DNA from: Pegea sp. RAD2-039
Lineage: Eukaryota; Chordata; Thaliacea; Salpida; Salpidae
Assembly: GCA_034620365.1 (NCBI GenBank)
Contig: JAQGEQ010000263.1
Coordinates: forward strand, 1,426,001 to 1,490,000
Direction of reading: 5' to 3'
DNA: 64,000 nucleotides
Made by a program: the position numbers and the translations under genes. Under the pieces are notes generated by a model. It was not told the DNA's origin, did no database searches, and was given only the letters and a program-made list of their open reading frames with translations. This document shows positions 1 through 52,772 of the stretch, in pieces (positions within the stretch are counted from its first letter, which is position 1; each line of letters opens with the position of its first letter).

Positions 1-332
1 TGTGCTTCTCTCTCTCTTCCTGACTGTGACTAACTTTGCAATAACCACACAGTCGATACGGTTTTAAAGATTTTTATTTTCTGTTTTCGAGATTTTCACA
101 AAAAGATATTTTCTTATTTTGATAATTTGATTTCTTCGAAATTCTCATTTCTAGTTTTTAGTTTTTATCCGATTTCTAGCTGCTTTGATGAAATAAAAAT
201 TTGTGAAAAATCTCTGAATGATTGAGTCATTTGAATCGAATCTTCTTTTACTGAATCTCAAGCAGGAATTGATTTTCAAGGTGAAGATCAGAAAATTTAG
301 AAAACATAATTTAAAAAAAAAAAGGAAAAAGT
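1..332 (-). other. mTOR 3' untranslated region and downstream DNA
   Basis: Downstream of the mTOR stop codon on the minus strand. It is AT-rich with short homopolymer runs. I see no gene. Open stretches here are low-complexity readings of the UTR. Confidence 0.5.
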
Positions 333-3300
333 TCACCAAAAAGAGCACCTGAAAATATATAAATGATTAGATGAAGATCAGTTAAAGATGAAGATCAGTT
401 AATCTTACCAGCCAATATAGCACTGACAAAGATTTTCACAAGATGTAGCTTGTGAGATGAGGAGGTCCACTTGAGTTGGAATATCTACAGTTGAGTTTCC
501 GAAATCACATCCTGTAAATGACGTAATCAGTTGATGACGTCATCACTCACTAGTAACGTAATCACCTGTCAACTTATCTCGAACTCTGTTAACAATCTTT
601 AAAGCTCTTTTGTTGATGACTTCTTGACCTACTCCACTAGAGTCTTCCATATCAACTGATGACGTCACAATTAGATTGATTATTTACTGATGACGTCACT
701 CACTTTGTAACAGACGAGTGACGATAGTTGCTAGGCTTTCTTCGTTGCTAGGTGACTTGTTTTCGAGATCAAGCGAATTTTTATCTTCCATCAACCTCCA
801 ATTAAGAAGAGGATCATATACAAAAGCTTCTAGAACAGCCATAATGCTCTCGCGGTTATGACGTAACACATCCATCGTTTTATGACACACGTGTTTGTAG
901 TTGCCTTCGATACCTGTCACCTGTGACGTCACATCATTGGTTACTACTTGCTGACGTCACCATTTACGTCACAAACCTCCATCGCGTTTACCAACATCCG
1001 TGTGAGACGAAATGGAATTTTCTCGGGGAACTTCTCCCTGGCCATCGCCACCTAGCAATGAACACATAGCAACGCAAAGAAGTGATGACGTCATCGTACC
1101 TCGAAGCAATCACCGAAGTCGATGTGAAGGACTTTCCCGCTGACGCGATCTAACATTAAGTTACTTGGATGCCGGTCACCAAGTCCAAGGACATAACCGA
1201 CCATAGACATGACCGCAAGTGACCTCGTGTAATTGGTCCGCCTCACTAACCAGTCCTGACACATCATATTAAAAGAGGACCACATTTAATAGTTGGTTGG
1301 ACTTACTTCAGATGTGGGACTCTTCAACCACAGCAGTTTGGCCAAGTCATCGCCTGCTGTGTTGTTGATGGCGTGTTCGAAGACCTCGACTTTGTGGAGA
1401 AGAGGAAGATGATCGTAGTCGGGGGCCATCTGAAGATCATATAAAGATGAAGATCATATAAAGATGAAGATGTCATAAAGATGAAGATGTCATAAAGATG
1501 AAGATCATATAAAGATGAAGATCATATAAAGATGAAGATCTTATAAAGATGAAGATCATATAAAGATGAAGATGTCATAAAAATGAAGATCAATTAAGGA
1601 TGAAGATCTTATAAAGATGAAGATGTCATAAAGATGAAGATCTCATAAAGATGAAGATGTCATAAAGATGAAGATCTCATAAAGATGAAGATGTGATAAA
1701 GATGAAGATCATATAAAGATGAAGATCTCATAAAGATGAATATCATATAAAGATGAAGATCATATAAAGATGAATATCATATAAAGATGAAGATCATATA
1801 AAGATGAAGATCATATAAAGATGAAGATCTTATAAAGATGTCTTTAAGATGTATCACCTTCAACATGATCCGATGTTCGATATTCAGCAAGATTCTTTTC
1901 TTCTCGCGATATTCACGAATGAGGAAATGAAAAGTGTCACAATTTGGCACCCAACCAATCAGCCCCGAGTTCATCGATAATGGGACCACCGATAACTTCT
2001 GAATACTGAATCACAAATTCAATCTTCCTGATCAGCAGATGAGTAGATCTTACTTCAAATTCTTCCGATTGCATTGAGCATCAGATGCTAGTAGAGTGTT
2101 GATGAGTCCGAATAACTGCATCACTCTCTCATCTTGTCTTAAATCTTCATGTCCTTTCAACAAGAACGAATGCTCTTTCCCGTCACTTCCTCTAATCACC
2201 AACTTCCGAGGTCTTTGCTTTGAAGCAATCACATGCAATGTGGGGTTGACAGATCGGATGCAAATGATGGGTCTGCCGGGTTCGTAGGTGCCTGGGACGG
2301 CCAAGTCTAAGTTGCAACATGCCAGTAGTTTCGGGGACACATAGTCCAGCCCCAAAGTGGTCAACTGAAAGAGATGGGAGTTGATGAAGAGGACTTTTCC
2401 GATGTGGTGATCTTCACCTGAGGGAGCTGTTTTGTAATCCTCCTAAAGACTTGATAATAAAGATCCCAAGCTTGATTCAGCTCTTTAACATCACCCTTCA
2501 TCTTGTAACTCTTACACAAGTCACGTGCATCTTTCAAGTCGCGCCCATAAGCCTATGACGTAATGACGATGAATCGACCAATCAGATGCAAGTATTCAAG
2601 TTGTACCTGATTAAAACTTTTCTCTTTTAATGTTGTAGCTCCTCTATCTAACTGAATATGAAGAGGTTCTAAAATATTCAACATCCCGTCGATGTCTCTT
2701 TCAGCGAAGTACAAACGCGATGCTTCTTCTAATCCTCCATGCCAAGATTCATGCCATAAAATCGCCACTCTGATTAACTCTTCAGAAACCTACGTTTGAT
2801 GACGTCATTCGATGACGTCACGTGACAACATCGAGACCCACCATGATGGTTTGTTGAACAAGTTCAGCTGAATGTTCACACATCTTATTGAGGATCTTAT
2901 TAGCTGGATGTTGTTGCTGCTTCTCTGCTTTCGAAGCAACCGCCAGTGAATAGATGATCGACTGAAACAAGTGATGACGTCACGAGGTGATGACGTCACT
3001 GACGCGAGTGACTTACTTGAGGATGTTCTTTACCGATGTTAGTAAGAAGTTCGTGAAGTAATGAAGCAACTGCTGGTTTGGGTGAAGCAATTCTTGCTAT
3101 TAGTTGAGGTATCACTTGCAACCAGTGTTCAATTTGAATACTTTTAATTCCTTCTTTCACTTTCTCGTTGACTGATGTAAAATTCCCATGATCAAACCAA
3201 AGAGTGATGACCCTGAAGATGAAACGGGGTTAGTGGTCCTCAATACCTCCAAACACAAGAGATAAGTTCAGAGGCGAGGAGTTTTTACAAGTCAAGGTGC

Positions 3301-6300
3301 TAAATTGATCATTATGTTCTACATCGAAACTGGACCAAGGGTCTTTAGTTGAGATGTGGACCAGGGTTAGGGACAACTGACCTGAGACAGTCCTGAAGTG
3401 AATTTAATTCACAGAGACTGATTGATTTGAAGAAACCATAAACAGCTGTTGATGCAAATTTCACCATCTCACTTGTATCATTCTAAAAATCAAAGTTCAA
3501 AGGTCATGTGCTTTGTGACGTCATCAGTACTCACTGAAATCGCTTTTTGATGAGGTTTAATGACGTCAAGATCGATTAAATGAGTGACGTCATCAGTAGA
3601 AGCAGCTAACTCGTCGATGTCATCACATTCGGGTTGATCTTGAATTGCTATTTGAATCAAAGCTCCAACTTTTTCGCGATTTGATTGAATTCGATTTTTA
3701 TAGAAGTTGACGCTTTCAAAATTCGCCATCGCCCACGAGTACCACGCCTGCGAGTGATGACGTCATTAGAAGGTGGTGACGTCACAAGAAGTGGATGACG
3801 TCACACACGCACCTTGTACCAGTATTCATCTTGTTCAGTACAAGATTTGAAGTAACTGATAATATCTGGAATCGTCTTCTCATTAAATCCATTCAACTCT
3901 TGATGCCAGCGACCCAATCGCAAGTAACATCTGCAGATGATGACGTCATAGGTGGTGATGACGTCACAAGCGGTGATGACTTACTTGGCGAGTAGATGTT
4001 TCATTTCTTGTCGGAATTCGGAGCCACAAATATTTGTTGGATAATATTTGATGGTTGAAACATATTGAAGTAAACCATCGAGAGCACGTGACTTGTTTTT
4101 ATGCAAATTACTTTTCTTCCACATATGCTTGAGGTAAGCAACTGAAACATGAGGTTGGGAAGATGGCAGGACTGCTTCGGGATCATGTTCAGGATCACAT
4201 CGGAGTAATCTCAATAAAGTTTGATGAGCAAGTTTCTAGATGACAACAACTTGAAATATGACGTCATGATGACGTCATCACCACTTACCATTCGTCCATG
4301 TTTATGACAAAGATTTGTGAATTTCAATAAAGTATGAACTCCTTCATGAGGATCAACAACTAATGAACGAACCTGAATGATCCGCTGCCAATCCTCTAAA
4401 TTCTTATCCATGTCCTACAAAAGTGATGACGTCATAGAAATCGGAATCAGATGACGTCATCACTAACCTGTAATCGATCCCACCAAGCTTTACGAACAAC
4501 ACTAGCGCGTTCTGGTTCTAATTTGTAGCTAATTGCTTCTTCTAATTCAGATAGAAGTTGACAATTGATAAGAGCAGGATATGCACGTGTATGTGATTCA
4601 CTTGCAAGTGCTGTTAATTTACAATCGAGTATTTCTCGCGCTTCACCAATACATTTACGCGCGAGTGAATATCGTTGTTGATGAACTGCTATTACAGCTC
4701 GATATAACATTCCATCATATTCGTTTCGTGGTATCACACACGTATATTCATCCATTTTATCCCATTTGTGAAGACCCCACGCAGCGCTGGCCGCTAATCG
4801 CGCCATCTGACGTCTTTCATCTAGAGAATTTTTTGGCCAATTAGCTTCTGTGTATTCGTACATGTCGTCCCTAAAGATCAGTAAAGTTTAATAAATTAGC
4901 GGGAAAACAATTATTAAAATCCGGCTACCATTCGCCCAAAGCCTCGAGACTTCGTAAATATCCAAGTTTTTGAGTGAAATTAAAACTGACATTTATTTCA
5001 GGATCGTCATGACTTCGGAAATAATCAGAATGAGAATTTAGTTTCCGTTGATACATTTTCTTCGCTTCGTCCCATTTATGTAATCTTTCATACCATTCTA
5101 CATTCAAATCTTGACATTGCTGTAAACATCGACACTTACAAACCATTTAGACGGTTACCACGACAACAAACCTCTCCAATGTTAGCAAGCATCTTCTTGT
5201 GATAAACCAAAACACCATCAGCAGCTTCCGGTTGCCCAAGTTTTGTGTAAATACTGCAAAAACAACCATTAGTAACTAGTAGCAACCATCAGTAACTAGT
5301 AGCAACCATCAGTAACTAGTAGCAACCATCAGTAACTAGCAGCAATTATCAGTAACTAGTAGCAACCATCAGTAACTAGTAGCAACCATCAGTAACCAGT
5401 AGCAACCATTAGTAACTAGTAGCAACCATCAGTAACTAGTAGCAACCATCAGTAACTAGTAGCAACCATCAGTAACTAGCAGCAACTATCACTAACTAGT
5501 AGCAACCATCAGTAACTAGTAGCAACCATCAGTAACTAATAGCAACCATCAGTAACTAGTAGCAACTATCAGTAACTAGTAGCAACCATCAGTAACCAGT
5601 AGCAACCATTAGTAACTAGTAGCAACCATTAGTAACTATTAGCAACCATCAGTAACTAGTAGCAACCATCAGTAACTAGCAGCAACTATCAGTAACTAGT
5701 AGCAACCATCAGTAACTAGTAGCAACCATCAGTAACTAGTAGCAACCATCAGTAACTAATAGCAACCATCAGTAACTAGTAGCAACCATCAGTAACCAGT
5801 AGCAACCATCAGTAACTAGTAGCAATCATCAGTAACTAGTAGCAACCATCAGTAACCAGTAGCAACCATCAGTAACTAGTAGCAACCATCAGTAACTAGT
5901 AGGAATCATCAGTAGCTAGTAGCAACCATCAGTAACTAGTAGCAACTATCAGTAACTAGTAGCAACCATTAGTAACTAGTAGCAACCATCAGTAACTAGT
6001 ACCAACTATCAGTAACTAGTACCAACTATCAGTAACTAGTAGCAACTATCAGTAACTAGTAGCAACCATTAGTAACTAGTAGCAACCATCAGTAACTAGT
6101 ACCAACTATCAGTAACTAGTAGCAACCATTAGTAACTAGTAGCAACCATCAGTAACTAGTAGCAACCATCAGTAACCAGTAGCAACCATCAGTAACCAGT
6201 AGCAACCATCAGTAACTAGTAGCAACCATCAGTAACTAGTAGCAACCATCAGTAACCAGTAGCAACCATCAGTAACTAGTAGCAACTAACAGTAACTAGT

Positions 6301-9300
6301 AGCAACCATTAGTAACTAGTAGCAACTATCAGTAACCAGTAGCAACTTACTTTATCAAATCGCCAATAACTGTATCTGAAGGACGTTTATGAAATTCTTG
6401 TTCTTTGTAATGAAGAGCTTTTGCATAAGCACTACATCTCCACGCTGTCTCTCCTAGCAACGCGTAATCATCATTCATTGGTAAGGTTCCCTGTTATGTA
6501 GTAACCATCATCAATATGATTTCACAAATATACAAATACAAACCACATCAGTATGTTCCATGAACTCAGCGAGGTTTAGAAGAGTGTGAATTACTTCTGG
6601 TGGGCAATCTGCTGCAGTTAGAGCTTGTTCAATACAAGAAATTAAATCATCTTGTTGTGATTCATGTAAATTAAGCCAAATTGATAAGAAGCCAGCATTA
6701 AAGAGGTTTCTGTCGGATTAAAAGAGTTAAAAGTCGATAAAAAATTCAACAAGAGTTGATATGACTTTGCAATTAGAGGAAAACTTGTAGCAAGAACATT
6801 GCAAGATTTGAGAGCAATTGAAGGAGATTCTTTCAATAAACTCCTCATCAATAAATTCAACCAACTAATCCAATCATCTTTTGAAACTTGTCGATTAATC
6901 GTCCAATACTAAACAAAAAACAATGATGATAGTTAGACGGTAACATCAGTTGCTAAGTAACATCAGTTGCTAAGTAACATGAGTTGCTAAGTAATATCAG
7001 TTGCTAAGTAACATCGGTTGCTAAGTAACATCAGTTGCCAGGTAACATCAGTTGCTAAGTAACATCAGTTGCTAAGTAACATGAGTTGCTAAGTAATATC
7101 AGTTGCTAAGTAACATCGGTTGCTAAGTAACATGAGTTGCTAAGCAACATGAGTTGCTAAGCAACATGAGTTGCTAAGTAACATGAGTTGCTAAGTAATA
7201 TCAGTTGCTAAGTAACATGAGTTGCTAAGTAACTACAGTTGCTAAGTAACATGAGTTGCTAAGTAACATCAGTTGCTAAGTAACATGAGTTGCTAAGTAA
7301 CTACAGTTGCTAAGTAACATCAGTTGCTAAGTAACATGAGTTGCTAAGTAACATCGGTTGCTAAGTAACATGAGTTGCTAAGTAACATGAGTTGCTAAGT
7401 AACTACAGTTGCTAAGTAACATCAGTTGCTAGGTAACTACAGTTGCTAAGTAACATGAGTTGCTAGGGAACATCAGTTGCTAAGTAACATCAGTTGCTAG
7501 GTACCTTTTGTAGACGCTCGTAATTAGAAATAGGTTTTCGTGGAGTTTCAGAAACTGTAGAAAATTTCAATGTATCAAAATTTTTCGACTTGTGACTTTC
7601 CCATAAACACACATCGGTAACTTCATGCTGTAAAATTCATGACGTCATCAATATGTTAACGATGACGTCATACTCACCTCAGTAATTTGCGTCAAAGCGA
7701 CTTCAAAATCGACGTGATTGATTCGATGACGTAATATAGACTTCCGAATTCGAGGGATTAACAGTTCCAAACTACAAATGACGTCATAAATCAGAGATGA
7801 CGTCACAAACATCAAATGGCGTCACTAACTTAGCACCAAATTGTTTAGTTGTTGCACACAAAGCTTCCATAGCAGCAGAATGGTTGTCAGGGTGATTGTC
7901 GATGACGTAGATAATTAAATGGATGATATGTGACATCAGAAAAGATAAATCGATGTCATTCGCTAATGTTTGTAACGTCATCAAAATCGCGCTGTCAATC
8001 AAAAGATGATGATGATGACGTCATCATATGAGCTGATGACGTATACTTGCGAAGTGTCGAAGTCGCTTGTGGTGATTTGAGTTGTTTAAGCATCGATGGA
8101 AGAATTATCGTGATGTAATCATCGAGACTCACTCCAAAGACTTCGATCGCGTCCAAAAGCTGTTGAAATGATGACGTCATCATGATGTCATGTAAATAAG
8201 AGGGAAAGTACCCTAAGTGTGACCTCTCGGCCTGGTGATGTATCATATTCTAAAATCCGAATAAAATGTGGGATCAATATTGGAAGATGAGACTTGAAGC
8301 TAGCAGAAAGAGGCTCTGCGATCACTTTTATCAAATCCAGTAAACATCTTTGGACCTCATGACCTAATTTCCAGAAATCCTGATGAAAAGAAGATTTAGA
8401 TGAAGATAAAGGAAGATGATGAAGACCTCAATTGCGAGGATGATCTTTCCAGCATATGATCGGACATGTTGCTTCACACATACCACAATACTACTCAACT
8501 CGGTGAGATAAAACTGAAATTGAGAAGATATTAGAGAAGATAGAAGATGAGAGTGATGTTGCGGACCGTTTTAGGATCGATAGTACTTCGTTTCATAGCC
8601 TCCAAATAAGTTGGAATAATTTCTTTTAAAAATGGAATACATTTAACACTCATTTGTAAAAACATTTGTTTTATTGCCTACAAAAAAATGAAGTTAGAAA
8701 AATAGATGATAATTATCAAATAAATAAATGATAATTATCAAATAAATAAATGATAATTATCAAATAAATAAATGATAATTATCAAATAAATAGATGATAA
8801 TTATCAAATAGATGAATGATAATTATCAAATAAATAAATGATAATTATCAAATAAATAAATGATAATTATCAAATAAATAAATGATAATTATCAAATAAA
8901 TAAATGATAATTATCAAATAAATAAATGATAATTATCAAATAAATAGATGATTTATGAAGGAAATTTACTTGAATTGTCAGCCTGTGATGACTTTCAAAT
9001 TGTGGATTGCTTAAAGTTAACATCAAAGATTTCACAGCAATAACTGTATAATAATCATCAGTGACATTTCCATAAGATACAATCAATTCGCTCACTGAAC
9101 TATCTGTAAATCACGTGATTCGATGACGTCAGCACGTGACTCGATGACGTCATCGTCTACTAACCGAGATTATGTTTGTTTGTATCTTCATTTGGTTGGA
9201 TAACAACTTCTACTTTTGGTTTTTTGATCAGATTAAATTGAGAAGCTCCAGGTGTTGGTTGATGTTTATAAGGATCATGAATTCCTAACAAACCTAAAAC

Positions 9301-12300
9301 TCTCATCACCTGTATGACATCATCACTGATGACGTCATCATCACACGTGATCAAAAACTCACTTCAATTCGAAATTGTTGACTAGTTTCAGAATTAACAA
9401 ATTTCAACAAAGTATCTTTTAAAGACGGATATTTATGATAAGGTGTAACCACATATCCAGTACTTTGAATTACTTTTCCAAGTGTCACTAAGGCAGCCTG
9501 AAAAGTAACGATCAGTTGCATAGCAACCAGCTACATAGCAACCAGTTAATTAGTTAATTACTTGTCGTTTAGCAAAACACGTGACATTTTCCAACATTTC
9601 GATAACAGTTGGAAGAATTTCATCAATTATTGAAGAAATAAAAATTCCCCCAATATGAGAAAGTTCTCCAATAGTCTTCATAATTCCAACTGCTACTGTC
9701 GCTGTTTGCTCCTCATTTTTCAATTTCTCGATCAACGTCTATAACAATGACGTCATTCTATGGTTACTATGACGTGACCAGCTTACCTGAATGGTTGCTA
9801 AGGCGTGAGCTTGCATAAATTTTGGGGCATTTGTAGCAATTTGAGAGATTAAGTTAACAGCATGAAGCTTATTACGACCAATTCCACTAAATTTCAACTC
9901 ATTTATCAACTAAAAAAGCAATTTCGTCATTTAAACGTGATATGACGTCACAAACAATGACGTCATCACCTGCATCAATACTCGACGAAGCACGGGAATG
10001 ACATATGCAGGATTAAGCTCACTGAGACGCGCGAAGCTCGCCAGCGCCCTCTGTCGGACTTCAATATCTTCCTCATGTAACGCCATCACTAATATCTTCA
10101 AATTTTCCGTCTGAAACGCGATGATGACGTCATTTGATGGTCGTCAGCAGTTGATGACGTCACTTACCAAGATAAGATAACAGTCGAAATGGTTGTCAAG
10201 GGAACGAAGAACTTGTAAACGAACGCTGACGTCATCATCAGTGACGAGAAGCTTAAGAACACGTGACACAAATCCAGCCAAAGTTCGCGATAACACCGGA
10301 TGTATCTGTGACGTCATATACATATGATGACGTCATAAGCTAGTTGATGACGTCATACTAACCACAGCACGACGAGGTGTGACGTAGACAGGTGGAATCA
10401 TCGGTTGCAGAAGCGAGATGAGAGCAGCGACCGCGTTGAGACGAACTTGTTGCGAATCGTGTTGTAGGAAGCGATCTGATGCCACTTCGCGACAAATCGC
10501 GTCAAATGGCGCCGGAAGTTCGAATGACGTCACTGATTTATCGCGAAGAAATCGAAATGAGGCGAGCATTCGAAGTGATAACGTCATTGCTTCGGCGTTG
10601 ATGACGTCATCAGTAGATGTTGGTGTGAGAAGGATTCGTCGGACGCGATTCAGGATTCCATCGTGAATAAAAGGCGTGTATGACGTCATCACTCGACTTA
10701 ATCGATATAAAGTGTTTATAAGTGCTTCACTGTAGATGACGTCATTAGTAATTGAAGTTGTGATGACGTCACGATCACCTGAGTTCGAATGTGAATAGAA
10801 GCGGAAGTATGACGTCAAGTATCGGAGGCGAGAAGGAGTCGATTTTGGCGAGGACTAAAATTGAAGTGTAAACGGATTCCTCCAACTCAGTGTTTCGATA
10901 ACGTCTGTAATGATGATGACGTCACAACATGATGACGTCACAACTTGATGACGTCATCACTTACTTTGACATCATTGGCAAGTAATATTTGATGCTGGTG
11001 ATGACTTCATCAACGTATATCGTCATGTTGACATGGTTACGATTCATCACGTGACAGAGAACCGCGATTGAATTGAAGGCAGAATGACGTGCGCGATCCT
11101 GATGACGTCATAAGATGATGAGGTGAAAAAGAAAAAGAAATTTCGAACTTTTTTGATGCAATTGAAAAGAAATTTGAAGACATCTTTGAAATAGATGATT
11201 TGGAAAGATTCTGTGTCAAAAGATGCCAAACGTGGAATCAATTTAATGAGGATTGATTGAAGACACAAATTCTTGGATGTCAGATGTCTCATCACTAGCT
11301 CCATCAACTAAAGATCAGTTAAAGATAAAGATCTGAAGATGAAGATAAGAGTACAGACCTTTTTATAGTTTCTTCTAATGATAGAGATGCAGATTTTGCT
11401 GGATAAGGGAGCTTTTGAGACTTCATCGAAGTCATCAATTTTATGCAAATTAGAATGAAGATTTGTTGAAGATAAAACTTTAGATGAAGTTTCAATTTGC
11501 TTTGAAAGTTGAGATTTATTCTAAAAATGGAAATAATTTATCAAAATTCAATTTTTCATTTCAAATTACTTTTTCGGTGTGATCGTTTCGAAGTGCTGAG
11601 AATTCTTCGACGTCATCAACATCTACAAAGTTGTGATTGGTGAAATCATTGATGCGGAACCAAATCAACTTACTGAAGTTACAAAGTTTCAGGATTTCGT
11701 CCAATAGCAGCAAAGCTCCGTGAACTTTATCGTCTCGATTCACTAATTGCCGGTCGTTAGCAGCTGATTGTAAAACTCCAAATAATTTATCAAAACATTC
11801 CTAAAGAAAAAGGAAGTTGTACCACTATTTGGACCAGTGTTTGGACCAATGTTTGTACCAGTTTGTACCACTATTTGGACTAATGTTAGGACCACTGTTT
11901 GGACCAATGTTTGGACCAGTTTGTACCACTATTTGGACCAGTTTGTACCACTGTTTAGACCAGTGTTTGGACCAGCGTTTGGACTAATGTTAGGACCACT
12001 GTTTGGACTAATGTTTGGAGCTTTTCACTACTTTCAAACCCCTACCACTATTATATATCTTGTTTCACTTCAATATAACTTGAAAAATATTTTTAGTTTT
12101 TTGATTCAGCATATAAATTTGTTCTATTTTTAGAAAATTCTTTTCTTCACTTTGATATTTTATATAAAATTGAAAGATTGTTCTTCAAAACCTCCGAAAA
12201 CCTCATTGAATCCGAGTAAACTGAAATTAGTGCTTTTGGGGAAGTTACCTGATAGTAAGGAGAATCAAGTTGAGAGTCTTTAAGTTCACGTTGAACTAGA

Positions 12301-13246
12301 ATCATTAGAGCTCCTTCAATAGCTTCTACGGCACGCTCTCTATTCCCTTGCTGAAAACAATGAATCAAAAAAAGAGGTTGAAGACGTTGAGATGAAGACT
12401 TACTCGATAATCAAAGACAACGTTGAAAATTCCTGCAAAAAATCTCTGAATTCTCATATAAAATAAAGTTGGAGTTTTTTTGGATAGTTGAGTAACAATC
12501 AGTACCTGAAAGACACAAATCAAGAGATGAAGATCAATGTTGGATCAACTTACAGAAGCTCTTCGTCTAAACTCAGAGATTTCTTCATTTAGCCATTCAA
12601 GAGCTTTAACATAGTGATAAGTGATGTGTTCAAGTTGTTCTGCTGATGCTGCTGCTGCTATACGGCCAACTACAGCAGCTGAAATCTCCAAAATTGCTAC
12701 AAAACAACTGATGAGGAAACAGGAAGAAAGAAGGCTATCTGTGGGGGAACTTACCAACATCATTTACATAAAAGACATCTCTAAGTGAAATAGAAAATTT
12801 CATCAATTGATTTTGATTCATTTCAAAGATATCCAATAAACTCACTAAAAATCATTTCAAAAGAATGTTTTAATAAATAAAATTGAATGGATAAGATAGA
12901 AATACGAACTTATGCCAAGTAAACCTCCTTTTAAATCATTTAAATCAGAACCAGTGACCATTAGCTGAAGATGTTGGTTGATATCATTCATAAATTTTAC
13001 TGATATTTCAGAAGATATTTCTTGTACTTCTAAAAAGGTATCAGATTAGATTTTTTTAATTTTAATCAATAAAATAATTTTATAATAAAATTAAAAGCTT
13101 TAAAATTTTCAGGTTACATAGATGAAAAAAAGAGAAATGCTCATGTAACCTGTGTTGATATGTCTTTGTAAAGCGATTGCTGTTTTAAGGCGAATGTCTT
13201 CATTTCTACTTTTTAAGCCATCTATAAAATATTCTGCAGATATCAT
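333..13246 (-). CDS. MTOR: Serine/threonine-protein kinase mTOR (spliced, complete)
   Basis: Catalytic subunit of TORC1/TORC2, which controls growth in response to nutrients and growth factors. The whole protein can be followed exon by exon along the minus strand. The start ATG is at 13246-13244 and opens into a HEAT region whose early sequence GLKSRNE matches vertebrate mTOR. HEAT repeats fill about 13.2-6.4 kb (landmarks [16 protein letters not shown] near 11.7 kb and [12 protein letters not shown] near 9.3 kb). The FAT domain covers about 6.4-2.8 kb ([17 protein letters not shown], 4.8 kb). The FRB domain ([19 protein letters not shown], then [14 protein letters not shown]) lies at 2.76-2.42 kb. 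The kinase has the Gly-rich and Lys region (SKQRPRKL), the catalytic loop [12 protein letters not shown] and [14 protein letters not shown] ends in CYIGWCSFW with TGA at 335-333; the last exon is only 16 bases. Most introns are about 50-150 bases with GT-AG ends; five are enlarged by tandem repeats. No frameshift or internal stop was seen in the exons checked. Exon-level precision is incomplete in the HEAT region. Confidence 0.95.
1436..1850. repeat. 17-bp minisatellite in an mTOR intron
   Basis: About 24 tandem copies of a 17-base unit, AGATCATATAAAGATGA, with variants in the middle (GTCATA, CTTATA, CTCATA). The array fills the intron between the exon ending RIMLK (donor near 1855) and the exon starting MAPDYDHL (acceptor near 1430). 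Low-copy relatives of the motif (AAAGATGAAGATCA) occur near 370-405, 8380-8420 and 11310-11350. Confidence 0.95.
5258..6346. repeat. 20-bp minisatellite, about 54 copies, in an mTOR intron
   Basis: Tandem copies of AGTAACTAGTAGCAACCATC. Over more than 1 kb the period stays exactly 20 bases with no insertion or deletion that I can see. Variation is by substitution only (CCATC/CTATC/CCATT, ACTAGT/ACCAGT). Most units contain the palindrome ACTAGT. The array lies inside one FAT-region intron of mTOR. Confidence 0.97.
6935..7503. repeat. 17-bp minisatellite with an RFX X-box-like core
   Basis: About 33 tandem copies of GTTGCTAAGTAACATCA. Variants replace ATCA with ATGA or CTACA, or read GGTAAC or GCAACA. 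The core GTTGCTAAGTAAC is an imperfect inverted repeat resembling the X-box bound by RFX factors. It sits in a HEAT/FAT-region intron of mTOR. Confidence 0.95.
8700..8950. repeat. 22-bp minisatellite in an mTOR intron
   Basis: About 11 tandem copies of an AT-only-rich unit containing the perfect 12-base palindrome TGATAATTATCA separated by AAATAAATAA. It lies in a HEAT-region intron of mTOR. Confidence 0.95.
11818..12022. repeat. 12-bp minisatellite in an mTOR intron
   Basis: Imperfect tandem units of about 12 bases (ACCACTGTTTGG, ACCAATGTTTGG, ACTAATGTTAGG), with some 10-base units (ACCAGTTTGT). It reads open on the plus strand as a WTNV-like repeat only because the period is a multiple of three. 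I regard it as intronic and non-coding. Confidence 0.9.
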
Positions 13247-14339
13247 TTTAGATGATTTGTGTCAAATGTTTCTTCACAATTCTATAAATTTAATCAAATA
13301 ATAACTTATTCCAATCAAGATTGATTTAATAAAAAACTAAGAAAATTAATAAAAGTTAAATTGAGTTATAAACTTAAAATAAAATATTAAATTTTTTATA
13401 TTCAAAGTAAATTTTTGATTGTTTTATACTAAAAACCTTTTAATTAGTATTCAAAATAAATTTAAAAATTTATATTGTTAAAAAAAGATACAAAAAATGA
13501 ATGAAACTTTTAGCTTTTAAAAAACTAAATAGTTGAAACATTTTAAGAATTTAAAAACATCATTATAAAAATATGTCTTAATTCGTTATAAATTTAAACA
13601 CTGAATAATATTAATAAAATAAATTAATAATCTAGCACAATAACTTGGTTAAAGAAACTAACAATTTGATTATTTAAGAGTTAAACTTAGATATTTAAAT
13701 GAAAACCTTAGTTTCATAAATTCAATTTTGTTTTCAATTTAAAACTAAACTGAAAGAAGATTTATTAAAATCTTACTCTATTTCAATAAGTAATAAAATA
13801 CAATTTTTAAAAATAATTAAGTTTTGAAATTTCACTTTGTAAATAATAATTTCGAAAAAAAGATTATAAACTAATAATATACTGACTTCAATAAGTTTAG
13901 TAATTATGAAAGTAAAACAAAAAGTACGGCCAAAAGCTCATTAAAATTAAAAATTTTAGTAAAACTAAAAAATCACTCATTAACATAAAAAGTATAAATA
14001 AATGTGAAAATAAAAAAGTTGTGTTCCAAATGAAGCAAAGGGTAAAATGTCCATTTAAAAAAAATAGTTTATCAACATTACTAAAAAAATAAATTAAAAA
14101 AAAGTAGTGTAATTAAAAATAAAAATTGAATAAATCATTTAAAAAATATATTTTGAATATTCTTACTACTTTTAAACTTTCTAACATTTTTACAACTTAA
14201 ATTGCATGGTAGACGGCGTTTCTACAACTTTGTGCAATTATCATTTTAAAATTCTCATAGTATGACAAATGCAAAGAGGCTTGCTTATATATGCTTCTTA
14301 TTTTATTATTTTTCCATTATAACCTTTTTATGAAAGTAA

Positions 14340-14435: not shown

Positions 14436-14844
14436 TTTTTTTACTTTTTAGTAATCACGCCTATTAATGCCGTTAGCATGGCAAAAGTCTTTATAATAAT
14501 AATTAATATAATAATAGTTTATAATTTATAATAATTAATGGGATATTAATGAAGTAGGAGGCAATAAAAATGTCGATAATTCTAAAAGTACGATCCTATA
14601 ATGAAAGAAATTATAGATGGCTTATAAAGAAAACTTTTAATGTATGGTGACTCTTGTGCAAGAGTTGTCAAACTCTGGAGCTGGAGAACCGTATCTGAAT
14701 CTCAAACGTAAGTGACAATTTATTACGATTGTTTTTCTCGTTTTTTGAATATTTATATTGTATGTAATTATACAATGTTATATTGTATGGGGACTGCCAT
14801 GTGTTACAATATATTTCCATCTTAATTATATATAACTATATTAT

Positions 14845-14930
14845 TTGTGAGAATGTGTGCTAGCGAGGTGTGTTTTTCAGGTTCCCTCCTTCACATTTAT
14901 TGTAATGAATAAAGTTTGTTTATTTATGTT
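14845..14930 (+). mobile_element. Non-LTR element 3' tail, copy 1
   Basis: Contains CAGGTTCCCTCCTTCACATT followed by TATTGTAATGAATAAA. The same block (TTTGTGAGAATG, then CAGG.ACCCTCCTT, then ATTTATTGTAATAAATAAA) closes the reverse-transcriptase element at 42005-43650. This is a 5'-truncated copy of that family or of a SINE sharing its tail. Confidence 0.7.
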
Positions 14931-16014
14931 GTTGTCAAACAGTTAAGCTAATATGATTTTAAACTAATTATTTTCGCAAGAAGAATATTTGAAGAAAACA
15001 ATTATTTCATGATTTAAATTTAAAATTACTTCTAGATTACTTCTGAGAATAATTTCCATTAAACTTTTTTGGAATATAATATTCCCACTGACTTACAAGT
15101 AAACTAAATTTCTTTTTAAAGTCGTAATAAAATAATTACAGAGTTATTAGTTAAATATTATTATTATAGGATTATTATAATGAGTCTTTTGATAATTTAG
15201 CCTTGATATCTTCTCGGGAAATTCAATTTGCTGTCTTAAAGACAAAACCAAAATTTTGCAAATAATTTGAGAAGAATATAAAAGATAAAAATAAAATAAT
15301 TTTTGGCTGGTTTCGAACATTCATTTATCATTATCACGAATTCTTCAACTAAAACCAACTAGTTTTTTTAACTTGTCAGTTTGTAATCAATTCTATTTAT
15401 AAAAAAGAATAAATTAAACATTGAAAGCGAGCCATTAAAATTTAATATTAAATCGATCAGATAAATGTAATAGTTGAAAATTGAATTAAATAAAACTGAA
15501 ATAGAAATAAATTTATCAAAAAGAGTTAAACTGAAACCAGCTTTCAAGATGTGAACGTGTATTTACATTCAAATAGAGACAAGCATGAAATATTTGGAAA
15601 CTCAAAACTTAGCTATTCTGTACCTCACTTCACCAAGGTAAATCCACCCAAAAATTAAAAAAACATAGGACTCTCTTCAAACAGTCTGACCCCCAAGCAA
15701 CTTCAGTGCTTTACGAAATGATTCGAGCAAAAGTTCTGACAAAAAACACAACAGGAAAGCAGATGACAGATAGACGAGAGAGTTAAACATAAGATGTAGA
15801 TTTCAAAACAAGAAAATTGCTCTTAGCTCGATGGAAACTGCCTCTTCTGTATGCTAAAGTATCACATTCGTTATGCGAGTCACATCTTTACTTTCTTATA
15901 CTGATAATAGGAAGGATTTGATAGAAACACGCTCATAAAACTAATTTCAAAACAAAGGGGGTCGGGCGGGCGTTTGAATACTAGAGAAAAACTGAATGAC
16001 GTCACAGAAGTTTT

Positions 16015-18631
16015 CTAGCGTCGTCTTTTAGGTGAGGACTCATTTGTTCCGCTCATGGAGGCAGATCTTTTTCTGGATGGTGAGGAACGGTCGTGGTATT
16101 GGCATTGTGCGTGGAGAAAAGATGAAAGTTCAACTAGAAAATAAAAATTGAAGTTTTTGTTGATTTTGTGCCATTTTTTAAAGTTTTATAGATTTTATAA
16201 AATCGATAGCAACATATTGTTCAAACAAATATTTGATTATTTATTTACAACCAGAAGTTAAATGGTTAATTGAAAAAAGTCTTGAATAAAATCAGAGATT
16301 TAAAAATGATCATCTTTAATGAAATCAAATTGTTGAGTTTAAAATTGAAAACTAATCATATAAATGAATTTCTTTCAATTTGTTTGATGAAAAAATCTTA
16401 GAAATATTTGAAAAAGTTTCTTTAGCTTTTTTATCATGTAAATAATTAATTCCAAAACTCATCAAGTTAAATAAATGGAATCAAAATGTCAAGATAGATT
16501 TCAACAGATATATTTGAAGGTTTTTAAAATATTTCTTTTCAATTAATCAAAATACCTTGTTGGTTTTTGGCTCTAGGTGAAGACCTATCCTGTTGGCTAC
16601 CCTCAAAGTTAATACCCGACATTCTGGTGTTTAGACCTATCATAAAAATGTCCAATTAAAATATGAGAATGTATCAATTGATTTTATAGATTAGAAAATG
16701 TTACCTCCTAAATAAACGGCTTCTTTGAATGTCTGAAGTCGGTTATCAAGTTCTGGTTGACTTCTGGTCGGCAAATAAGTTAGATAGGGTGAAGGAGCTT
16801 TACGACATAAGAACTTGATCAAATCATCTCGCCTGGAAGAACAAATGTCGATCAACTTTCAGATATTCAGCTTGCTAGTAACAACTAGCTAGGAATAAAC
16901 ATTAATCTTGTAAACCGAGATCAAACCATGGAGTAACAAAACTGATTGAATTGTTGTAAATACATCGATAAAATAAAGAGTATTTACTTGACGAATTTGC
17001 GCTTTTTTCTGAGCCACGAAACCAGTTCCTTATTTCTTCTACTGTATCCGTATTGATGAGAGACATCTCCGAAGCTTTTATAACCTTCTAGAGACTCTAC
17101 AGAACAAATATTATGATATCTAGGGTATATTTAGTAGGGCACAGGGCAGTTCATATCTTCTTTTAGTATTTTAGCAAAATTTAAAGAATAAAAAACATCT
17201 TAAGAGTTAAATAATTACACAACAACAATTTAGTTCCAATTTACAAATAAAAAATTGATTGTTTCAAGCCAGTAAATTGAGTTGAAGAAATCTTACATCA
17301 ATTGACGAGGGTTTTTTGTCAAAAGAAAAAAAAAAGGTTTTGAATAAGATTTATAATTTCAGGTTGAAGTGAGAAAGTCAACTTTTGAAAATTGAAATCT
17401 CTCACAAGCAGATTTAGAAGTGAGAAAAGGATATTTGTGCAAATATCATATACTCAGCTGGTTTTCACAAATCTTTTGACAAATGCCAACATTAACCACC
17501 ATCAATCTAGCTACCAATAACACCCAGTGAAATACTGATAGCAAAATGAAGGTTCAAAATTCTTCAGTCATTAAAACATCAACTGAATTTCGTTTAAGCT
17601 TAAATAAAATCGAATTAAGAAATGTATAATTAGATAAAACAATCAGATATTTTGGGTTAAAGCTAATTAATTAAATTTATTTTTCTTTAGTCTGGTAAAT
17701 GATCTATCATTTTAGGTTTTGAGCAAACTTAAACAGAATTTGGAATAAACACTTAACTTCTAATCTTAATAATCGATTGAAACTTTAAATTTCTGTTGTT
17801 AAAAAAAGCTTTGTGGTTTTGAATAAACTCAGGTTCATGATTAGTACATTCTATATAACAACCTGAAACTAACTCAAATTACAAAACAAAAGCAAGATAG
17901 CATTAAAAAAAAGTAAAGTTAGCTTTAACCTAAATGACCTCTACAAATGTATCAACATGAACATAGTTTTGAAGATTATATAAAACCAAATAGTTGTAAA
18001 AAATCAAATCTTAAAATGCAAAATACAAAAGAATGTCTAAATAAGCAAACACAGTTTCTGGTTTAAAAAAACAAGCAAAAGCATTGAGCTGCTGGAAGTT
18101 GAAACTTTTGCTTACGTCTATATAATACTGTAGCGTGCTCAGCGGCGTTTTGAAAAGAAAACCATTGTTCATCTTTACCATTGTCTTTATCTACAAACAA
18201 ATATTGTAAATTAATTTACAAACAATAGGATGCAGAATAATTGAAGGAATAATCAAATTGGTTTCAATTATTAACAACAAGCTAACAAAATGAAACTGAA
18301 TTTGATTTCTAAAGAACCTAAATGGTTAAAGACAAAAGATTTCGAGTACAAATTAGTAGTTGACATCTACCTTTATACAACTGTGCTATAGCAGCTGCTG
18401 TATGTTGGAAATTATTCCAAAGAATTTGTTCATTAGCTGCTCTTTCAGTGTGATAAAGCTTTTCAGTTTGAGCTTCATGATCGAGAACCTTCAAGAAAAA
18501 ATATTAATAGGAAGTTTGTAATCAAGTTATGATCAGTTATTTACAGAATTCATGTATTCTTCATCTCTAGTCAGCTTTGATGGAGGGCTTAAATTTTGCA
18601 AAGACAGGTCCTTAGTAAAAGATTGGTCCAT
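16015..18631 (-). CDS. HAPSTR1: HAPSTR1 (C16orf72)-like stress-response protein
   Basis: Homologue of the protein family called HUWE1-associated protein modifying stress responses (C16orf72), a small nuclear/cytosolic adaptor. Seven exons join in frame with GT-AG introns to give about 238 residues, ATG at 18631-18629 and TAG at 16017-16015. Diagnostic segments in order: NNFQHTAAAIAQLYK and FSFQNAAEHATVLYR (the paired FQNxAxxxxxLY helices), GYSRRNKELVSWLRKKRK, RDDLIKFLCRKAPSP, LQTFKEAVYLGG, then ELSSFLHAQ and a basic Ser-rich tail ending SPKRRR. All these correspond in order to the vertebrate protein. Introns are 100-1000 bases, unlike the tiny mTOR introns. It is divergent from NBN. Confidence 0.9.
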
Positions 18632-42004: not shown

Positions 42005-43650
42005 ATTTTATTTATTTATTACAATAAATGCAAAGGAGGGTACCTGAAGAGAGTACCTCTCGCTAACACTCATTCTCACAAATAGCATCTATTTAGCTAA
42101 GAATATAGAAAGTAAAAGATGTAGCACATGGTATTTCGATAGCACTCAAGGCATATAACAGTGAACAATTACATGGAATGTTAATAATATAAGAAAGAGA
42201 AAAAAATCACAGTTTAGAAATGACAATGTTGGCAATATTATGACGGTTCAACTTCTTTTTGAACAACGCGAGCGACTGACAATATCTGATGGCAGCTGGT
42301 TCCATATATTAATTGTACGGTATGAGAAAAGATTTGCTCTGACCAATGTACTAGGTGATATAGGTTTATTAAGGTGTAATGTGTGTCGTCTGAGCTGATA
42401 TAACTTGAGGGAAGGACTAATGGAAAACAAATCATCAAACTGAATGTCAATTAAATTGTGGATAATTTTAAAAATAAGAGTTAAGTCGTATTTAATCCGT
42501 CAAATTTCCGAAGTACCTAAATCGAAGAAACTGAGACGATGTTTATAACTATCATTTTTAATATTAAGTTTCCTGCCTACTAATCTTGTAAATGTGGCCT
42601 GAACAGATTCGATTTTTTTGATATCACTAACTTGTTATGGCAACCATGCACTGACATTATATTGAAGAATTGGACGTACGTAAAATTTGAAAAGATTGAT
42701 AAAAAAGCATGGGTCCTTAGAATTAAAGGTCTTTGTAATAATGAAGACAAGGTTGATTGATTTTCCAAAGATTTTGGAAACATAATTGCGCCATTTAAAG
42801 TCAGATGATAGAGTAATGCCAAGGTCTAGGACCGAAGATACTCGTTGAATAATAAATCGATTGATGGAGTATTGGTTCAAGCAATTTACAGCTGGTTTAC
42901 GAGAAAAAGTTATAAGTTCAGACTTTGTGGGCTGGATTCTGAGCTGCCAATTCGTAGACCAGTTTTCTACAGTGTGTAGTGCAATTTGAAGTTTTGAAGA
43001 ATTGTAAGATAATAGCTTGATATCATCTGCATACACAAACACACTGACATCATCTACTGCTACTAGTCTTCTGATGAGGTCTTCGATGAAAATTAAAAAG
43101 AGAAGGGGACCCAGAACAGAACCCTGAGGAACACCACTGGTCATTTGACTAGTAGTAGATAAAGATCTTTCTACACGAGTTTGTTGGGTTCTACCTGATA
43201 GTTAATCTTCAATCCACTGTAAGATAAAGCTGTTGATTTTTAAGTTTTTCAATACATTAACGAGATTATTATGTTTGACAGAATCAAACGCTTTAGCAAA
43301 ATCGAGATATATGATGTCAAAGGGAGTGTTACTTTCATAATGGGCTGTAAGCTCATTAAGAAAAGTGAGATGTTGAGTCAGGGAAGATCTCCGTTTCACA
43401 AATCCATGTTGGACATCAGATATTAGATGGTGCTCCATCAAATGACTGGTCATATGATTATGAATAATATACTCTTGAGTTCTGCAGATTACTGAAGTCA
43501 GCGAAACTGGTCTGTAGTTAAGTGCGGTGTTCCTGGGACCCTTTTTATGAATTGGAGTAATAATAGCTTTCTTCCAAATTTGTAGAACTCTTCCTCGCCT
43601 CAGAGTCATGTTAAAGAAAAGCGATAAAGGTAGTGATAAACTATACTAAA
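42005..43650 (-). mobile_element. 5'-truncated non-LTR retrotransposon with RT, three nonsense codons
   Basis: Minus-strand frame shows a reverse transcriptase of the CR1/L2/jockey type. It starts at WKKAIITPIHKKG (43.57 kb), then NYRPVSLTS, QHGFVKRRS, IYLDFAKAFDSVKH, SGVPQGSVLGPLLF, the catalytic VYADDIKLL, and the C-terminal INIWNQLPSDIV (42.3 kb). The whole 1.4 kb stays in one frame but is broken by TAA at about 43202, TAA at about 42635 and TGA near 42497. The 3' end is a conserved tail, CTTCAGGTACCCTCC then ATTTATTGTAATAAATAAATAA. The 5' end is truncated in the RT N-terminus. Inactive but fairly young. Confidence 0.88.
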
Positions 43651-46005: not shown

Positions 46006-47563
46006 TTAATAACGGAAATAAGTGAGCTTTTTAACTACCTTTAGAGAAGTTAATTTTCAAAATAAATCTCGTTTTATTTGTGAGTAATTGAAAGATGAAG
46101 TAAACTGTACATTAGTTTTCGTTTTAAAGATTAAACTATTTATTTCCGCCCACTTGAAATATGATCTTTTTAATAGTTTATTATAGAAGAGAAATTGTTA
46201 TCAAACTAAAGTGAAAGTCTAATAAAGAACTATTTCTAAAATATGGTTTCAATCTAGACAAGTTAAGCTAGCTACCTACAAATGTTTCCACCTCTCAATA
46301 AATAAACTCTCAAACTCTAACCTGATACCATCTGACTTTTATCTGAACACCAATCAAATTTCATCACAAAACTACGCATCTTCATCTTTCATGACTTATA
46401 AGTGATCTCATCAAGTAAATGAGTAAAGTGGTCTTATTGTCTCAAAATGGTTATGCTTTAACGGAAATAGAACTGATGTTGTTGTGACTTTGAATCATAT
46501 TCTTTAAGATTTTCTTTGTTTAACTACTCTTAACAATTTAAGATCTATCATCAGATTTATTATTAAGAATTCAAATAAACTAGCATTAATAAACTTAAGC
46601 TAAAAAGACCACTTCATTCAAAACTAAATCTGATGGAATAAAATTAAAAAAATCATTTTCATTTTTTCTGTTTTATCGCTTCTGTTTGTTTTAGGTAAAA
46701 CTGGTTGAAAATTTGATCAGTATTTTTGAACCAGTCAGCAAAGTAGACTTATTTACTGATTGAAATTTCAGGAAGAATTTTTTTTTGTTTTGAAGAGTTT
46801 TTATCAACTTTTTTTGTTATTCGATTTCTTTTACCTGTGTTGAGGAATATATAATTATAAAATGTTCAAGCAAACTCCTGTGTACTTGACTAAATAAAAC
46901 AATAAAGATTACCAGAGAAATTTACCAGTATTAACAGATGTTTTCTAATCAAGTTGAATATTATTGCATTTTAAAACTTAAATTAATCATTGTTTGGTGA
47001 TAAGTAATTTACAAGTGATTTAATTGAGTCATTACAGATTTTGTACGTTTTATTTTACCAAATTGTACTGCTGTGTTTATAAAAGTTAATTTTAAAAATA
47101 ATGCTTCTTGTTGATAACTTAAAATTAATTATTTGAAAAGCTCAATTAACAAAATTGTGAATGATTGAGAGCATTTAATAACAGAAATAAGTCAGCTATG
47201 TCCTGGTTTGTATGTGTCAGCTATATGTAATTATCATGTGATAATTATTTGTCTAAAACTTGTTGCAAAGTACCAAAACCTAAATTGTAACAAACAAAAA
47301 TTTGAAGTAAATAATTTATCTTTAATTAACATCAAATTCAATACCAGATAGGAAATGTTTTTTTTTTCTTCAAATAGTTGTTTTTTGTAATAAATTGTAG
47401 AAATATTTTAACTTAACAATAATGTTGTTATAACATTTTCTTAAAACAGACTTATCTGAATTAATTTTTTATATCAATAAATAATAGAGTATAAATTGAT
47501 TATCTTGTTTAAACAATTTTTATAATTTCTGGTATTTTTATTTTACAGACTTAAATAAACAAA
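46006..47563. other. Upstream region of sulfotransferase 1 with retroelement debris
   Basis: 46260-46480 repeats the segment seen at 41640-41760 (CTCTCAAACTCTAAC, then CATCTTTCATGACTTA), a LINE fragment on the plus strand. The rest is AT-rich with no gene. Confidence 0.5.
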
Positions 47564-51955: not shown

Positions 51956-52772
51956 TATATGTTGCCATCAAAACTTTACTGCGCGTCAATCAGAACTTCT
52001 TGACTAATGATCGCTAGATTTGTCTTTGAGTCAATAACTATGTAGTTTTTTCAGAAAACCTAGTTTGAAGTTAAAGTAGATAAGTCAATCGAACCGATTT
52101 TTATTTAATTGCTCAATTAGTATTTTTATGAAGTTTGAACGAGTATTATGAAACTACAAAGGAAAAGCGTTATGAAGCTGCAAAACTAGAAGAGACTTGT
52201 ATTTTACTTCATTCTTTTTTGACCGTTAAACAAATTGTGAAATGTCTTTTTAAATTTTTATCAAAAAAGTTGATATTTAATTGTTAAAAGTTTAATTTGT
52301 TTTTTTCCTTTTCTTAATTGATTAGTTATTCCGCATTTTATATAAGTTATATTTTTTTTAATATTAAACTACTTAAAAAATAGTCTAACTTTCTCTAAGT
52401 TTTAAATAAGTTATTGTATGATTCTAATCTAGGGTTAATATTTGTTAAATGAATAATATTTGTTAAATCAATAATAATATTTAGCAAATAATAGATTAAT
52501 CTTACAAACTTTCTTCAGTTTTTTAGGAATCATATTCTTAATTATTTGTACAAAACACGTTAAATTATTTAATGAAATTTGTACAATAAGAATAATGAAG
52601 TTAGATTTAAATTATTTTTTTACAGATTGATATTTATTGTTCAAATATTTGTTGTTCTACAAACTCTTAAAACTTTATTTTTTGACAAAACTTTTTAAGT
52701 TTATAGGAAAAAGTAAAAGCAATTATTGAAATTTTGTAAAATAAAACTGATTTACGAAAAACTTTTCAAGAC
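51956..52772. other. Spacer upstream of sulfotransferase 2
   Basis: AT-rich. No coding region or recognised repeat. Should contain the sulfotransferase 2 promoter. Confidence 0.4.

Follow-up and report, generated by a model that had tools for sequence, protein, structure and literature searches.

A highly iterated palindrome with the sequence of a CREB/ATF site runs through a class of genes in a salp genome

In cyanobacteria, a single 8-base palindrome, HIP1 (highly iterated palindrome 1; GCGATCGC), is iterated through the genome, and its model holds that a repair bias alone can write the palindrome there (PMC4390886). In fission yeast, the ATF/CREB dimer Atf1-Pcr1 binds the M26 core ATGACGT, works inside a coding region and directs meiotic recombination (PMC9775316). 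The CREB/ATF site itself, the cyclic AMP response element (CRE), is concentrated just upstream of start sites in vertebrates and shows no positional bias in fly, worm and sea squirt (PMC1796609). Here, we describe the CRE octamer TGACGTCA in the genome of the salp Pegea sp. RAD2-039 (GenBank assembly GCA_034620365.1), starting from a stretch of 64,000 bases (contig JAQGEQ010000263.1, positions 1,426,001 to 1,490,000 of the forward strand; hereafter “the window”) that contains an mTOR gene. More than a curiosity of mTOR, the octamer proves to be iterated genome-wide and to extend into protein sequences. In the literature that we searched, TGACGTCA is not described as iterated in any animal genome, which is weak evidence of absence since subscription papers and preprints were outside the scope of the search.

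The window holds 51 exact copies of the octamer: a field of 50 at 535-11110, inside the mTOR gene, and a lone copy beyond the gene at 15997-16004 (neither with a strand assigned), as compared to a mean of 0.45 and a maximum of 4 per window in 100 dinucleotide-preserving shuffles. An earlier reading of the letters alone (the sequence-only reading) had counted about 50 copies in 10.6 kb and one in the remaining ~50 kb, had put the chance expectation well below one, and had seen in the octamer a CREB/ATF-type site that did not behave as a normal enhancer. All of this was borne out, and the enrichment is real and huge. The naming of the gene was right as well. The mTOR gene (copy a; 1-13260, minus strand, with its 3′ part at low coordinates) was delineated from a match in the Protein Data Bank (PDB), a FAT domain, a home-made exon model and the alignment of a second copy: The octamer-free open reading frame (ORF) of a kinase-region exon at 2050-2442 (minus strand) matched human mTOR in the PDB with E ~1e-42, and Pfam placed the FAT domain in the ORF at 4447-4887 (minus strand), which carries one octamer, read SDDVI, at its end, where the frame may enter an intron. 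The mTOR-domain Pfam match for one exon alone fell below the curated cut-off. The 5′ end of the gene lies at ~13,250, from a start codon located by eye, and the second copy aligns up to window position 13445.

Contrary to the earlier claim, the octamer is not restricted to mTOR. Across the 105.7-Mb genome (387 contigs), TGACGTCA occurs 27,792 times, compared to 969 times for the reversed word, and in a 323-kb sample it was the most over-represented of all 8-mers (588 copies versus 6.1 expected), i.e., it shows the gross genome-wide over-representation by which HIPs are defined. Among palindromes that occur more than 10 times in this sample, TCACGTGA has the second-highest ratio (50 versus 5.3 expected). 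The sample comprised 34 sources and 323,066 bases, after dropping L003, which overlaps L002; L001, L002, L004 and most of a further set of stretches had been picked for their octamers, and the sample accordingly has 1.8 copies per kb as compared to 0.26 per kb in the genome. Words with at most one mismatch numbered 64,917 genome-wide (28,668 for the reversed control), the 27,792 exact copies included. The genomic average of 0.26 per kb compares with ~1 per kb in HIP1 genomes (PMC4390886), and patches here reach up to 8 per kb. A dense patch extends over 60 kb of contig C24, at 48 to 79 copies per 10 kb (370 in all); 5 kb at C1:2050001 contain 30 copies, which is also the count in 5 kb of sequence belonging to an ankyrin/RCC1/BTB gene (L026), and a 10-kb stretch whose right end lies 10 kb to the left of the window contains 28. 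Ten 5-kb samples taken at regular steps on C1 and C3 gave no octamer in five cases, two or three in three cases, and 11 and 30 in the remaining two. With half of the systematic samples empty and two holding at least 11, the octamer marks a class of genes, neither all genes nor mTOR alone. The sequence-only reading had proposed that an equal density in most introns would remove the mTOR-specific part of its claim, and these samples show such equality only in part.

The genes of this class are richer in GC and CpG. Over 314 windows of 1 kb, octamers per kb correlated with the observed/expected CpG ratio (Spearman 0.60), with GC content (0.44) and with the hexamer CACGTG (0.47), and the CpG ratio was 1.03 in 1-kb segments with at least two octamers versus 0.68 in octamer-free ones. 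CACGTG itself occurs at about eight times expectation in 62 octamer-dense segments, for example at 9112-9152 of the window.

Octamers occur in exons as well as in introns, contrary to the proposed intron-borne placement. In the sample, 88 ORFs of at least 130 amino acids contained octamers at 138 distinct places. In 94 cases, 30 or more codons separate the octamer from either end of the frame; stop-to-stop frames may extend into introns at their ends. The places correspond to 141 hits, and four of the ORFs are near-identical tandem copies on contig C38; 78 hits read xDV(I/T) and similar, 63 read (M/V/L)TS, and none fell in the frame that contains a TGA stop. A single BTB-domain match (residues 23-93) holds five octamers between residues 28 and 85 (LSDVT, RNDVI, MMTSS, DDDVI, IRDVI), and a CH-domain match holds one (IDDVM). 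These six octamers are therefore truly translated. In a B-family DNA polymerase gene, which we take to be REV3-like, the string DDVTTDDVTTYDVTSDDV lies in an open frame adjoining the frame of the exonuclease domain. Exon and intron densities, which are estimates from a rough home-made gene finder (an earlier version over-split genes and was discarded), were 7.1 and 7.4 per kb in L013 and 6.4 and 7.1 in L017 (both on C24), 8.6 and 4.9 in the BTB gene, 5.4 and 1.0 in the polymerase gene, 1.7 and 3.8 in mTOR, and 0.8 and 0.9 in a nucleoside transporter gene with three octamers in total. Presence in both coding and non-coding DNA, a feature of HIPs, is thus seen at the 138 ORF places and in six modelled pieces. 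On C38 (680001-700000; L020 and L021), tandem repeats of 1,740 bp that are ~99% identical carry several octamers each. A tRNA-Glu(CTC) gene lies at L013:1176-1248, apparently within an intron of the giant CH-domain gene.

Within mTOR, the home-made gene model assigns 38 octamers to introns and 7 to exons, and 5 span modelled boundaries. A 173-codon open frame at 10336-10854 (minus strand), with 66% protein identity to the second mTOR copy, contains seven in-frame octamers (YLTSY, RDVI, NDVI, VMTS, DDVI, SVTS, SMTS); its ends may extend into introns, and the gene model calls some of the seven intronic. The 50 sites are spread across the 10.6-kb gene body and leave empty the AT-richer 2.1 kb at the 5′ end of the gene (11116-13260, minus strand), so that in mTOR, the one gene for which this was assessed, the promoter-proximal placement of vertebrate CREs is not found. 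When viewed by eye, the 5′ part was octamer-free in three of four genes, namely mTOR, the BTB gene (L026 2611-4344) and the polymerase gene (L005 6799-9655), while the CH-domain gene on C24 deviates with an octamer near its start; this is an observation on four genes only, without a test.

The anatomy of the site is that of a short, symmetric DNA target. Around 573 octamers, the relative entropy was 0.24 to 0.68 bit in the first three flanking positions to the left and right and at most 0.1 bit per position beyond, which yields the symmetric 14-bp consensus TGRTGACGTCAYCA. The base at -1 is A or G in 93% and the base at +1 is T or C in 92% of the copies, the purine/pyrimidine flanks by which CREB/ATF sites are recognized, and we take the flank consensus to resemble the in vitro motifs of ATF7, JDP2 and BATF3. 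Flank pairs occurred as often as expected from independence (A..T 261 observed versus 265 expected, A..C 102 versus 100, G..T 101 versus 94, G..C 30 versus 35); left and right flanks are therefore chosen independently, with no pairing between them. Such symmetric, independent flanks with little information past three bases fit a dimer that reads double-stranded DNA, and argue against hairpins, splicing stems and a longer mobile repeat. Adjacent copies point the same way. Genome-wide, we found 1 pair at gap 0 versus ~152 expected, 1 at gap 1 versus 27, and 221 at gaps 3 to 5 versus 260, where the expectation derives from flank preference alone, scaled to gap 6 (72 pairs) as a yardstick. Abutting copies are thus strongly excluded and copies at gap 1 probably so, while spacing at gap 2 does not go beyond flank preference, a pattern that fits what a protein dimer with a footprint of more than 8 bp would impose.

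Exact copies also exceed their near-misses. In 94 dense 1-kb segments (at least two octamers; segments with exactly one are omitted from this count), 554 exact copies stood next to 125 single-mismatch words, where 36.5 were expected. The near-miss excess was largest at the second and seventh base, with 48 occurrences of TTACGTCA and TGACGTAA versus 3.0 expected, followed by CpG transitions (32 versus 7.0), while first- and last-base changes amounted to 11 in all versus 4.6. Since exact octamers exceed near-misses, the exact word is either very young or kept. A constraint at the RNA level, sought as a strand asymmetry of the near-misses, was not supported: TGACGTAA and TTACGTCA each occurred 14 times in C24, with small and mixed differences elsewhere, in what is a weak test as gene directions in C24 are mixed.

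A second mTOR copy (copy b), on the 51.7-kb contig C190, allowed us to compare octamers between two homologous genes. This copy is 79% identical to the window over a 1,416-base query, with matches that reach just past the start codon; the matched stretches lie at C190:18840-20272 and 16682-17944 (79% and 72% identical), and 4.4 kb of it were read (L036, C190 17340-21772). The C190 open frame had no match when searched against the PDB, and this copy is identified as mTOR through its similarity to the window copy in DNA and protein. In the compared stretch (window 8074-12830, minus strand), the window has 23 octamers, none past 11110, and C190 has 8, all 8 of which are common to both copies. Counting ungapped sites only, which omits a window octamer next to a 2-bp gap and another that is interrupted by a 9-bp gap, 7 of 7 octamers of copy b were retained in the window (8 of 8 including the one beside the gap), compared to 7 of 21 in the other direction, at an overall identity of 517 of 2,772 ungapped 8-mers (18.7%). 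As sequence beside the common octamers differs by ~20% between the copies, these octamers are old, which speaks against plain youth of the exact word. Among the 15 window-only sites, 14 align without gaps to C190 sequence that differs by one substitution (three sites), two (seven), three (three) or five (one), and the remaining site has the 9-bp gap inside the octamer. Two window octamers lie within a 21-bp tandem duplication (9112-9152, no strand assigned), beside which C190 is missing bases. In this one gene pair, the main mode of octamer turnover is thus point change, and the window copy keeps or gains octamers that have no counterpart in C190.

The C190 copy has been under protein constraint, as its third codon positions differ from the window at 159 of 485 sites, versus 98 of 485 and 80 of 486 at the other positions. 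Of the 22 aligned modelled exons, 19 have no gap or gaps in threes only; a broken copy thus seems unlikely, as far as the 4.4 kb go. Outside the octamers, C190 has drifted to A+T, with 280 sites at which a G/C of the window corresponds to an A/T, versus 164 of the opposite kind. The octamer difference is thus part of this wider difference in sequence regime, though it is larger (7 of 21 versus 7 of 7). CACGTG occurs six times in the window part of the comparison and not at all in the C190 part.

Taken together, these data suggest that something that reads double-stranded DNA keeps making and protecting the octamer. Our best explanation is that TGACGTCA is a HIP1-like highly iterated palindrome with the sequence of a CREB/ATF site, kept by a repair or conversion bias or by weak selection for binding. 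Within a class of gene bodies richer in GC and CpG, point substitutions would create this double-stranded-DNA site, in exons no less than in introns, and the site would be kept intact once formed. Its reader would be a CREB/ATF-type basic leucine zipper (bZIP) dimer, as the octamer is the classical bZIP site; the genome has twelve bZIP-domain matches. The engine, the least certain part, may be a bias of repair or gene conversion in favor of the intact bound site, which would act mainly in recombining, probably unmethylated gene bodies and draw near-site sequences toward the exact octamer, largely irrespective of coding content. We give most weight to such a bias directed at the site, followed closely by selection for bZIP binding within genes. 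As a whole, with this reader and this engine, the explanation is plausible, if somewhat short of probable. The bolder proposal that a DNA-binding dimer, or repair machinery recruited by it, rewrites gene bodies toward its own site by biased conversion, with DDV(I/T) and (M/V)TSS in proteins as a by-product, would amount to a eukaryotic counterpart of HIP1 combined with meiotic drive on ~28,000 sites; we put it forward tentatively, as a conjecture that may well fail. Gene conversion and chromatin, both named by the sequence-only reading, thus survive as possible causes, while the short repeat and the splicing element that it attached to them do not.

Several observations weigh against this explanation. 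A second palindrome, CACGTG (within TCACGTGA), is also enriched in octamer-dense segments, with 128 occurrences versus 15 expected, both strands counted (62 segments with at least three octamers and 178 with none, repetitive segments dropped), and the force at work may therefore not be specific to one reader. There is no deficit of pairs at gap 2 (6 versus 2 expected). A hotspot motif is classically expected to be lost under conversion, so that a conversion drive needs a postulated bias in favor of the site. Even in fission yeast, not all CRE sites are hotspots (PMC9775316). Selection for binding predicts nearly everything that conversion bias predicts. The dense sample was partly chosen for its density, and the gene models are home-made. 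The paralogue comparison consists of one gene pair, 4.4 kb and 23 and 8 octamers, and in it a gain in the window copy would look the same as a loss in the C190 copy without an outgroup. As CpG-containing words generally are kept less in C190 (133 of 525 from copy b to the window, 133 of 805 from the window to copy b), part of the octamer asymmetry probably reflects general CpG loss. Last, 3 of the 22 modelled C190 exons have gaps of lengths not divisible by three: 12032-12041 and 9947-9969, which are tiny and doubtful (the latter ends in a stop in C190), and the poorly aligned 11674-11775.

The strongest alternative is weak natural selection for bZIP occupancy in gene bodies, where each octamer would be slightly useful, for instance by aiding transcription across long genes, by opening chromatin, or by germline licensing of the kind proposed for the A/T clusters of Caenorhabditis elegans. 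Much of the anatomy of the site speaks for it: The consensus and its flanks make a good dimer site, abutting copies are avoided, near-misses are scarce with the commonest, TGACGTAA, being a plausible lower-affinity site, and the sites are concentrated in certain genes. It is strained, however, by up to 79 sites per 10 kb, some of which alter conserved protein domains, a density that to our knowledge lies far above any regulatory need, and by the requirement that each of ~28,000 sites would have its own selection coefficient above drift. We therefore regard selection on its own as possible, with doubts.

A methylation-linked repair bias, as modelled for HIP1, where a methyltransferase acting at the site makes mismatch repair favor the octamer, appears improbable. 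Candidate enzymes exist, as we found 11 DNA-methylase (PF00145) matches in the genome, 8 of them in open frames of 603 to 873 amino acids, and HIP1 and alternate HIPs are accompanied by methyltransferases that target the site or its core (PMC4390886). Yet, the higher CpG ratio of dense than of octamer-free segments looks like less CpG methylation where octamers abound, and the near-misses are dominated by TGACGTAA instead of by changes at the end positions. The PF00145 ORFs, which may be mobile-element or acquired enzymes, are located at C57:819728-826344 (two on opposite strands within 7 kb), C32:10146-38173 (three within 28 kb), C249:1740707-1742050, C52:9209-10639 and C262:183044-183379, and one on C49 matches in three pieces.

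If a short element had lately spread in a burst, by insertion or templated copying, and were just beginning to decay, this would account for exact copies that outnumber the single-mismatch excess, and local tandem duplications do carry octamers in places (8 of 157 near pairs have at least five of six matching upstream bases, versus 1.7 expected). An inserting short repeat, one of the causes proposed from the letters of the window, nevertheless conflicts with the near absence of common sequence past three bases, with the age of the eight octamers common to both mTOR copies, and with the gap-free alignment of 14 of 15 window-only sites, which led us to reject repeat insertion for the mTOR gene pair; in general, a burst is very improbable. 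Even less credit goes to an RNA or DNA hairpin, for example between two octamers that pair across a short intron to aid splicing, which was another of the proposed roles. Two copies are indeed self-complementary, and octamers occur in 55 of 139 short modelled introns, with two or three copies in 27 of these. Flank complementarity is, however, not raised either within a copy (291 versus 302 expected) or between neighboring copies, where 7 of 10 comparisons fell below the shuffled mean, 2 were about equal and 1 lay above (inner position 5, 58 versus 47.1 ± 5.5), so that stems between copies are unsupported; exons are as dense in octamers as introns in several genes; and octamer spacing has no helical phasing at 10, 10.5 or 11 bp. 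Spacing does show a 3-bp periodicity (R 0.18), which fits pairs within coding frames. Finally, an enhancer or regulatory array specific to mTOR, suggested by the octamer being a canonical CRE, is refuted by the genome-wide copies and the denser genes elsewhere and can be dismissed almost entirely.

Other features of the window lie beside this pattern. An mTOR intron contains a 20-bp minisatellite of 54 copies (5263-6346, no strand assigned), and the same unit, ~93-94% identical, forms a larger array in an intron of the neighboring DNA polymerase B gene (L005:6944-8995). Just past the 5′ end of mTOR, an interspersed repeat of ~190 bp (14727-14913) is matched at 72-77% identity by at least 38 other copies among the scored candidates. 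At 42635-43645 (minus strand), pieces of a reverse-transcriptase ORF (Pfam RVT_1) resemble a remnant of the LINE (long interspersed nuclear element) type. Two adjacent genes at 47555-49258 and 52740-54485 have ORFs that look alike by eye, one piece of which gave a weak Sulfotransfer_1 match below the curated cut-off. Rfam gave no match in the window at gathering thresholds, and a search of the whole assembly for the cytochrome oxidase I family was negative as well.

If our explanation is true, a HIP1-like word that doubles as a classical transcription-factor site is present in an animal genome, densely enough to alter proteins. The origin of highly iterated palindromes would then become testable in a sexual organism through transmission ratios and allele frequencies, and such genomes would let bZIP proteins, gene conversion and gene-body chromatin be studied in a natural experiment. 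Counts of CRE motifs and of DDVI- or MTSS-like peptides in such genomes would have to be read as products at the DNA level, and not as evidence of regulation or function.

How does the octamer compare to known systems? Introner elements are short intron-associated sequences repeated across genes, and the likeness ends there: We saw no insertion, no restriction to introns and no element longer than the site, with copying of a longer unit absent from the one gene pair compared apart from the single 21-bp local duplication. As with the periodic A/T clusters of C. elegans (PMC7725773), we find a distributed, position-free DNA signal tied to a subset of genes, whereas theirs is an A/T periodicity in non-coding DNA and ours an exact octamer that includes coding sequence. 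The fission-yeast M26/CRE site has the same ATGACGT core, completed here by an A at -1 in 69% of the 573 octamers; a hotspot by itself would, however, be expected to lose the motif, not gain it. With the CREB/ATF CRE (PMC1796609) the octamer is identical, and the CpG-transition variant TGATGTCA is found among the near-misses; unlike in vertebrates, gene bodies carry tens of copies, also in exons. The bacterial HIP comes nearest in kind, though two of its defining features fail: The near-misses are not biased to the first and last base, their excess being at the second and seventh base and at CpG, and the host is not a cyanobacterium but a genome with spliced mTOR and CH-domain genes. As in HIP1, a single 8-base palindrome is iterated through the genome, and gain by point change, which was modelled for HIP1 (PMC4390886), is here seen in one gene pair. 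Unlike HIP1, the palindrome resides in a eukaryote, has the sequence of a CRE and is concentrated in a class of genes, and its avoidance of abutting copies and its extended symmetric flanks point to a dimer as its reader.

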